Source of the DNA: an uncultured Alphaproteobacteria bacterium
Lineage (GTDB): Bacteria; Pseudomonadota; Alphaproteobacteria; HIMB59
Assembly: GCA_902522585.1 (NCBI GenBank)
Contig: CABYWI010000002.1
Location: forward strand, 1 to 51,310
Reading direction: 5' to 3'
DNA: 51,310 nucleotides
Shown here: piece by piece, positions 15,719 to 19,337 of the stretch
Numbering within the stretch: the stretch's first letter is position 1
Layout: the number at the start of each line of letters is the position of its first letter
The notes under the pieces: model-generated
Databases searched by the model: none
What the model was told of the DNA's origin: nothing
The model's input: only the letters and a program-made list of their open reading frames with translations
Translations under genes and position numbers: made by a program

Positions 15719-15814
15719 AGCCGAGAATTACATGGGCGGTTTTTTTTTGCTAATCCGGTCAGGTTCGAAAGAAAGCAGCCGTAACATAAAATATCGGGTC
15801 GTGTAATTCTCCTT
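15719..15814 (+). ncRNA. ffs: Signal recognition particle RNA (4.5S-type)
   Basis: The diagnostic domain IV core GGTCAGGTTCGAAAGAAAGC is present at 15757-15776, matching the universal GGUCAGG...GGAA/GAAA...AGCAGCC loop bound by Ffh. The outer ends GAGAATTACA (15723-15732) and TGTAATTCTC (15802-15811) pair perfectly over 10 bp, giving one long hairpin of about 95 nt. The RNA works with Ffh and FtsY in membrane-protein targeting. It lies directly upstream of dnaX, an alphaproteobacterial arrangement. Its 3' end is only about 5 nt from the dnaX start codon. The exact ends are approximate. Confidence 0.92.
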
Positions 15815-15819
15815 AAAAG

Positions 15820-17424
15820 ATGAAACATAAATCAGATATTCTAGCGCTAAAATACCGACCGTCTGATTTCAAAGATCTTATTGGTCAAGAATACCTTGTC
15901 GAAACAATTCAAAAATCTATTGAACTGAATAAAATACCTAATGCCTATATATTTACTGGGATCAGAGGTGTGGGGAAAACAACAACTGCTCGAATAGTAG
16001 CGAAGATGTTAAATTGCACAGCTTTTGATCAAAATAATAAACCTGATTTAAATAATTGTGATCAAGCTAAAGCCATAAGTGAAGATCGGCACCCAGATGT
16101 TATTGAAATAGATGCCGCTTCTAATACTAGTGTCGAAAATGCAAGAGAAATAATTGAAAATGTAAAATACAACCCTGTTTTAGGTAAGTATAAAGTCTAC
16201 ATCATAGATGAAGTTCACATGCTTTCTAAGAGCGCTTTCAATGCACTACTAAAAACATTAGAAGAACCTCCACCGCATTCTAAATTTATTTTTGCAACTA
16301 CTGAAATTTCAAAAGTACCAATTACAATTTTGTCTAGATGTCAGCGTTTTGATTTAAGACGCATAGATAAAAAAACCCTATTCTCCTTTTTAGAGGAAAT
16401 TGCTAAAAAAGAAAAAATTTCAATATCCAAAGAGGCACTAAATCTAATTGTCAGAGCCAGTGATGGCTCTGTTCGTGACTCCTTAAGCATACTAGATCAA
16501 TCAAATATTTTTAAATCCAAAGATGAAATTCAAGTCGAAGAGATAATTGATATGTTGGGCTTTGCAAAGCAAAGTGATTTATACAATTTATCAAAGTATA
16601 TTTTAGAAAATAATCTTCCAGAAATTATTAAAATGCTCAATGACATGTACCAACGAGGTTCCGAGACTTCAAAAATTATTGAGGATTTAATGAATATTGT
16701 TAATTGGTCTTGTAAATTAAAAATTGATAAAAATTTAATTAATGATGAATTTAATACAGAAGAGGATAATCAATTTGCCTCTTATGTTACTCAATATGAT
16801 CATGGGAAATTAAATATTTTCTGGCAAAGTTTAATGAAGGGCTATGATGAGATTAAAATTTCACCTCATCCTCATACTACTTTAGAAATGGTACTGTTAC
16901 GGTGTTCTTTTTTGCTCAATGATCAAAGTTCAGATGGATCTGACGAAAAAAAAAAGTCTGAAATAGCTCCAAGCCCATCGAAACCCTCTCCAATACTTGA
17001 TCAAGCTGTTCAAAATAAAATTGATTCCCATAAGTCGTTGTCATTAAAAGATCGAATAGCGTTGCACCAGAAATTTTTTCAATTTTATGGTCAGAATTTT
17101 TCTCCTTTGATGGCAGGTATTATTATTGAGAATTGTGAAGTAATTGATTTTTCAGAGAATGAAAAGAAACTAATGATACACGTCGTTAATGAAAATTTTG
17201 AGGGAGGCGAGGAGTTAAAAAATAATTTAAAGAATGAATTCCAGCTTTCTATTGTAGTCAAAGAAAATATCGATACTTTGGAGTCTATAAAAATGCTTTA
17301 CAAAAAGGAACTTATTGCAATTGAAACTCAATCAGAGGATTTTCAAAAAGTCCTTGCTAAATTTCCGAATGCAAAGATTATAGATATCGAAGAAGTAGAA
17401 AGAGGTGACCAAAATGATGGGTAA
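15820..17424 (+). CDS. dnaX: DNA polymerase III subunit tau/gamma
   Basis: 534 aa. It is the clamp-loader ATPase with Walker A GIRGVGKT (47-54), Walker B region IIDEVH (128-133) and the SRC sensor motif (172-174). The three clamp-loader domains extend to about residue 360, followed by a Ser/Pro/Lys-rich linker and the tau C-terminal domain that contacts the polymerase. Two features are odd. The zinc module keeps only Cys66 and Cys80 of the usual four cysteines. A run of ten A residues at 16946-16955 falls at the domain III/linker border, where a shorter gamma form could be made. There is no Shine-Dalgarno sequence; the SRP RNA ends just upstream. ybaB starts inside its last codons. Confidence 0.96.
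   Translation: MKHKSDILALKYRPSDFKDLIGQEYLVETIQKSIELNKIPNAYIFTGIRGVGKTTTARIVAKMLNCTAFDQNNKPDLNNCDQAKAISEDRHPDVIEIDAASNTSVENAREIIENVKYNPVLGKYKVYIIDEVHMLSKSAFNALLKTLEEPPPHSKFIFATTEISKVPITILSRCQRFDLRRIDKKTLFSFLEEIAKKEKISISKEALNLIVRASDGSVRDSLSILDQSNIFKSKDEIQVEEIIDMLGFAKQSDLYNLSKYILENNLPEIIKMLNDMYQRGSETSKIIEDLMNIVNWSCKLKIDKNLINDEFNTEEDNQFASYVTQYDHGKLNIFWQSLMKGYDEIKISPHPHTTLEMVLLRCSFLLNDQSSDGSDEKKKSEIAPSPSKPSPILDQAVQNKIDSHKSLSLKDRIALHQKFFQFYGQNFSPLMAGIIIENCEVIDFSENEKKLMIHVVNENFEGGEELKNNLKNEFQLSIVVKENIDTLESIKMLYKKELIAIETQSEDFQKVLAKFPNAKIIDIEEVERGDQNDG
16946..16956 (+). other. A10 slippery run in dnaX, candidate programmed frameshift site
   Basis: Ten consecutive A residues followed by G encode part of Glu376 and Lys377-379. 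A -1 shift, or insertion of one A by slipping RNA polymerase, gives one Val codon and then TGA (16959-16961), ending the protein at about 380 aa. Loss of one A reaches TAG at 16964-16966 after three codons. Truncation at 380 of 534 residues keeps all three clamp-loader domains, in proportion to E. coli gamma. No clear upstream SD-like enhancer or downstream hairpin is visible, so transcriptional slippage is as likely as ribosomal. Confidence 0.5.
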
Positions 17425-18824: not shown

Positions 18825-19337
18825 ATGCTCAAACTAGTATACGCACCTGATCCTATTTTGAAGAGAGAATGCCAACCTCTTACACAAGTAGATGATCATC
18901 ATCGCATTTTAATTAAGGAGATGTATGAAGTGATGTATGGGGCCAATGGAGTAGGTTTAGCTGCTCCCCAAGTTGGTTTAGATATGAGAATTTTTATTGT
19001 AGATGCTGCAGCTCGTGAAGAAGAAAAAACACCTATTACAATGATTAACCCAAAAATCATTTCTATAGAAGATGATTTAGTTCCTTATGAGGAGGGTTGT
19101 TTATCATTTCCAGAACACTTTGCAGAAATCGATCGTCCGGATAAATTAAAGATAGAATACATAGATGAAAATAATAAAAAAAAAACACTTAACACAGATG
19201 GTTTCAACTCTCGTATTATCCAACATGAACTAGATCACTTAAATGGAATTTTATTTGTTGATCATTTGAGTCGTTTAAAAAGAGATGTCATTATTCGAAA
19301 GATGAAAAAGTTCAAAAAAGAAGAAAAAATTGTTTAA
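18825..19337 (+). CDS. def: Peptide deformylase
   Basis: 170 aa. It removes the formyl group from nascent protein N-termini. All three family motifs are present: GVGLAAPQVG (about 45-54), EEGCLSFP with the metal-binding Cys, and QHELDHLNG with the two metal-binding His and the catalytic Glu. A -10-like TATATT (18812-18817) lies so close to the ATG that the transcript may be nearly leaderless. Its TAA shares one base with the fmt ATG (19337), so def and fmt are translationally coupled, as is common. Confidence 0.96.
   Translation: MLKLVYAPDPILKRECQPLTQVDDHHRILIKEMYEVMYGANGVGLAAPQVGLDMRIFIVDAAAREEEKTPITMINPKIISIEDDLVPYEEGCLSFPEHFAEIDRPDKLKIEYIDENNKKKTLNTDGFNSRIIQHELDHLNGILFVDHLSRLKRDVIIRKMKKFKKEEKIV

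Follow-up and report, generated by a model that had tools for sequence, protein, structure and literature searches.

A conserved run of ten adenines in dnaX of HIMB59 Alphaproteobacteria is a probable recoding site for a short DnaX, with transcriptional slippage as the favored route

A run of ten adenines (A10) in the gene of a marine alphaproteobacterium for DnaX, a clamp-loader subunit used in DNA replication, is probably a programmed recoding site, at which two DnaX proteins would be made from one gene, mainly through transcriptional slippage. The window, by which we mean the whole stretch of 51,310 nucleotides analyzed here, belongs to HIMB59, a marine alphaproteobacterial group also known as the AEGEAN-169 clade (PMC10308909). 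Judging from sequence comparisons, it is very likely that HIMB59 makes a short DnaX, and by analogy this protein would act as gamma does elsewhere. In the proposed switch, the zero frame would encode tau (534 aa), a shift by one base at the A10 would lead into the -1 frame and an immediate stop, and messages short of one A would lead into the +1 frame, again with an immediate stop. The product would be a gamma-like protein of about 380 aa that retains the three clamp-loader domains and lacks the tau tail. RNA polymerase slipping on the A-run in the manner of Thermus, to yield messages with extra or missing A's, would be the main source of the shift, and ribosomal slippage on A_AAA_AAG may contribute; we lean, with some reserve, toward this Thermus-type route over the E. 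coli type.

The window gene is a dnaX orthologue with clamp-loader domains I to III. In profile searches its product matched TIGR02397 dnaX_nterm at 425 bits, against a cut-off of 250, and the Pfam families DNA_pol3_delta2, DNAX_ATPase_lid and DNA_pol3_gamma3, and it was the sole match within its own genome. The C-terminal end of the protein (...KFPNAKIIDIEEVE) resembles the ...FPGT... termini of DnaX from other Alphaproteobacteria, and the open reading frames downstream are presumably YbaB and RecR. The features on which the argument draws are as follows.

15723-15814, + strand: gene for the bacterial small SRP RNA, adjoining dnaX on its upstream side (46.1 bits; gathering cut-off, 40)
15820..17424, + strand: dnaX, encoding a full-length, tau-like DnaX in the zero frame (534 aa, 61.1 kDa)
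16945..16956, + strand: putative slip site GAA AAA AAA AAG, Glu376-Lys379, with A10 at 16946-16955 followed by G at 16956
16957..17421, + strand: tau-only part of DnaX, comprising the Ser/Pro/Lys linker and C-terminal domain, with the zero frame open past the run
16959..16961, + strand: -1-frame stop TGA, one codon (GTC) past the run, the frame reading AAA GTC TGA
16964..16966, + strand: +1-frame stop TAG, three codons past the run, the frame reading AGT CTG AAA TAG

The slip site stands in the context GAA AAA AAA AAG TCT GAA ATA G, and holds the heptamer A_AAA_AAG in frame. The first-pass annotation had assigned the A10 and the following G to Glu376-Lys379 and had placed the -1 TGA one codon, and the +1 TAG three codons, beyond them, all of which is exact; its claim that the cut would fall just past the three clamp-loader domains also agrees with the Pfam match to domain III (DNA_pol3_gamma3), which spans residues 238-364 and thus ends about 14 residues before the predicted cut. 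It had further anticipated a short DnaX of about 380 aa and 42 kDa; the length stands, as the product terminated by the -1 stop (...DEKKKV) is computed at 380 aa, but the mass needs correction to 43.6 kDa. The +1 product, a route for transcripts one A short, would end ...EKKSLK after 381 aa. The zero frame does not end at the slip site and continues to codon 534, and the tau-only part of the protein is predicted to be missing from the short form.

Counted as a bare run, the A10 is unexceptional: two such runs occur in the open reading frames of the window, against 2.3 expected under synonymous shuffling, and this frequency, which is not significant, was dropped as an argument, as was a scan of A8 runs. 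Rather, sequence comparison indicates that the dnaX A10 exceeds chance through its conservation. The genus and family sets comprise the same 52 genomes, among which 43 dnaX copies span the site. The run is A10-G in 42 of these copies and A11 in one, always at codons 376-379, such that a conserved A-run of at least nine, which is expected of a Thermus-type site, is present in 43/43; the in-frame A_AAA_AAG is present in 42/43. The annotation had named mixed AAA/AAG lysine codons among relatives as evidence against a switch, and these were not found: every copy has AAA at both codon 377 and codon 378, and 42 of the 43 have AAG at codon 379. A -1 stop lies exactly one codon past the run in every copy (TGA in 40, TAA in three), despite codons 380 and 381 encoding Ser-Glu, Pro-Glu, Ser-Lys or Leu-Lys in different members, which indicates retention of the stop itself in the face of changing residues. 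Stops thus occur near the run in both non-zero frames, but that in the +1 frame is only loosely kept, at two codons off in 31/43 copies and at six to 16 in the rest. Hence the alignment of relatives, specified beforehand, strongly upheld the expectation that the run and the -1 stop would persist while synonymous sites vary, but not that of a +1 stop at a fixed place. When 39 full-length dnaX genes from the genus were placed on a codon tree (tree length 4.0), codons 376-381 had undergone a single third-position change, whereas six-codon windows averaged 28, and this stretch ranked lowest in the gene; the residues flanking the slip site vary freely. In almost every copy the slip-site run is the only A-run of nine or more, and GA10GTCTGA occurs once, in dnaX, among the matches listed for the nearest complete genome of the genus, a single contig of 1.41 Mb (G001). 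As a control, the other coding A10 of the window, in def (19176-19185), varies between five and ten A's among relatives. In two dnaX genes, L118 (G007) and L027 (G038), a one-base insertion and a TAA, respectively, fall at the same place (codons ~125-127, KYKVYIIDE); these coinciding disruptions are probably sequencing errors or pseudogenes.

Could such a site arise without recoding? A lysine-rich peptide kept for protein function, with the A10 as a by-product of AT-rich codon usage, would be in keeping with the preferences of these genes, in which AAA accounts for 81% of Lys codons and GAA for 72% of Glu codons, and with the ordinary number of A10 runs in the window. It is at odds with the fixation of AAG, rather than the preferred AAA, at codon 379, and with codons 380 and 381, which change between S, P and L and between E and K, respectively, while the former always ends in T and the -1 stop is always formed. 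Moreover, none of the 11 other Glu-Lys-Lys-Lys (EKKK) motifs in 686 kb of open reading frames from G001 is coded GAAAAAAAAAAG, A10 runs are avoided genome-wide (see below), and the run in def decays. Site conservation, the decay in def and the coding of EKKK elsewhere together mean that codon usage alone fails to explain the site; this account is disfavored, and we regard it as improbable. Homopolymers are error-prone, and an artefact of sequencing or assembly could produce a run of this kind; it is refuted by conservation, the same A10 being found in the dnaX of 42 genomes, including the single-contig genome, with nearly all zero-frame reading frames intact, and its probability is negligible. 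Proteolysis offers a different path to a short DnaX, with the A10 incidental: Caulobacter, likewise an alphaproteobacterium, makes gamma1 and gamma2 from tau by ClpXP (PMC5422525). As this would leave both the conserved run and the out-of-frame stop unexplained, a Caulobacter-like mechanism seems very improbable as the source of a short DnaX in HIMB59.

A separate question is which machinery slips. An E. coli-type -1 ribosomal frameshift could act alone, with tRNA-Lys(UUU) slipping on A_AAA_AAG, termination at the -1 TGA and no real role for the polymerase. The near-universal heptamer, the retention of the rarer AAG and the strict -1 stop all speak for it, as does the complete genome G001, in which a single tRNA-Lys, with anticodon UUU, is found among 35 tRNAs, as in E. 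coli, where this renders A_AAA_AAG prone to shifting (PMC5009743). Two of these observations count against transcriptional slippage: AAG is fixed at codon 379 despite the preference for AAA, which a role for the ribosomal heptamer would predict, and only the -1 stop is strict, which is awkward given that slippage should feed both frames. In E. coli, however, frameshifting at A_AAA_AAG relies on two stimulators, a stem-loop and a Shine-Dalgarno-like element (PMC3711429, PMC5009743), and neither was found among 13 genus members, in which the upstream sequence has at most 5/7 matches to AAGGAGG and no conserved purine block, and downstream 60-nt folds lie near shuffled energy (z from -1 to +1.2, with one exception at -2.9). 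Further, whereas E. coli shows a marked deficit of the heptamer (PMC4066793), the HIMB59 genome does not avoid it, in-frame A_AAA_AAG occurring at 1.27-1.29x expectation. Seven bases would suffice for the ribosome, yet ten A's are kept, among them the third position of codon 376. We consider ribosomal frameshifting alone to be a less likely, though plausible, explanation.

Transcriptional slippage, the reading that we favor, is supported by the genome-wide distribution of A-runs, since avoidance of runs of threshold length is a criterion for this mechanism (PMC1088944). In 671 open reading frames from 800 kb of G001, compared with synonymous codon shuffles, runs of A6 to A9 are found at about their expected frequency or above it (A9 at 0.95x), A10 runs number 15 against 36 expected (0.42x), and runs of A11 or longer number zero against 18. 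Avoidance thus starts at A10 rather than A9, and the dnaX run has exactly the threshold length of HIMB59. In the same reading frames (L281-L320, 800 kb), T-runs are avoided from length nine (0.49x) and A-runs only from ten, a difference between strands. Avoidance of long A-runs could also reflect slippage in replication, rather than by RNA polymerase, which weakens the argument, yet leaves the run kept in dnaX unexplained.

Other Alphaproteobacteria bear on the same question. In a family of 15 genomes with 43-51% GC (f6, L251-L265; e.g., G281:C1:3880-5400), a reversed dnaX is found in 15/15: NNA AAA AAA AAG is separated from a zero-frame stop by a single codon (by three in one gene), giving a product of 398-429 aa, and the tau tail is encoded in the -1 frame. 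Because the zero frame ends at this site and tau lies in the -1 frame, a shift is needed for tau. The A9-10-G again sits at the boundary between domain III and the linker, and is essentially one base apart from that of HIMB59 (TCT TAA vs TCT GAA); the codon before the lysines may be GAA, TTA, GTA, TCA or CTA, its third base being A throughout, so that at least A9 is kept. In one genome of this family (G281; 287 open reading frames from 400 kb), there is a single run of A9 or longer against about 27 expected; this near absence suggests a threshold of A9 in f6, whose dnaX genes carry A9 or A10.

Among 103 other alphaproteobacterial dnaX genes, seven of the 11 A-runs of at least nine lie within 11 codons past domain III, against 0.2 expected were they evenly spread, and three of the seven are in genomes of 46-58% GC, although related species are included and the seven are not all independent. 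At the same place, A9 occurs as NTA AAA AAA AAC in L213, L220 and L250 (f76), in L247-L249 (f38), and in L210, L043 and L044, with immediate closure in the +1 frame in f76 and in the -1 frame in f38. As this sequence would make a poor heptamer, and the closing frames differ between the two families, it would suit slippage over ribosomal frameshifting. The arrangement is not general: when the same site was sought in the sister family f2, five of the 20 genes examined had a run of A9 or more 43-50 codons past the anchor, with no single shared site, and the scarcity of such runs in f2 implies that not every member of the order has a short form, or reaches it by way of an A-run. Two SAR11 genes (L039 and L054, Pelagibacteraceae), with ybaB immediately downstream, encode in a single frame a DnaX that is naturally short, at about 425 aa; these two proteins seem to lack most of the tau tail and to retain only a short C-terminal FPGT motif.

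Whether bacteria need a short DnaX is debated, and the best-studied alphaproteobacterium makes its short form by proteolysis. In this context, the retention of such a site across 43 genomes from an abundant marine group, and its mirror image in f6, argue that a two-length DnaX is under selection in the class. We tentatively propose, as a possibility that goes well beyond the case of HIMB59, that Alphaproteobacteria have an ancient, or repeatedly regained, tau/gamma switch that works by slippage at the end of domain III; that the length of the run tracks the slippage threshold of each lineage's polymerase (A10 in HIMB59, A9 in f6); that a single base past the run determines which of the two proteins, gamma or tau, requires the shift; and that proteolysis took over in lineages such as Caulobacter. 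More broadly, a match between the length of the dnaX run and the length at which a genome begins to avoid such runs constitutes a simple sequence test of slippage vs ribosomal frameshifting, which is applicable elsewhere.

Set against known systems, the HIMB59 site parallels in layout that of Thermus thermophilus, in which dnaX undergoes transcriptional slippage at A9 (PMC1088944, PMC5009743): in both, a long A-run lies within one dnaX reading frame with tau in the zero frame, and nearby stops in both other frames give (in HIMB59, are predicted to give) a shorter gamma. They differ in the length of the run (A10 in HIMB59), in the pairing of a strict -1 with a loose +1 stop in HIMB59, and in that slippage in HIMB59 is proposed from sequence. 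With dnaX of E. coli, the HIMB59 gene shares the in-frame A_AAA_AAG, a -1 stop one codon on and a single tRNA-Lys(UUU), but departs from it in lacking stimulators, in conserving three extra upstream A's and in a heptamer that is unavoided genome-wide. Reversed dnaX genes, in which the zero frame encodes gamma and the shifted frame tau, form a GeneTack cluster in which 9/17 members have ten A's, and have been reported from 12 other genera, Chlorobium among them (PMC3711429); a single change can reverse the tau and gamma roles (PMC5009743). In these genes, too, a long A-run marks the switch point, but HIMB59 has the opposite polarity, with tau in the zero frame and gamma in the shifted one. Lastly, Caulobacter crescentus likewise has DnaX of two or more lengths, as predicted for HIMB59, in an alphaproteobacterium, but arrives at them through ClpXP proteolysis rather than recoding (PMC5422525).
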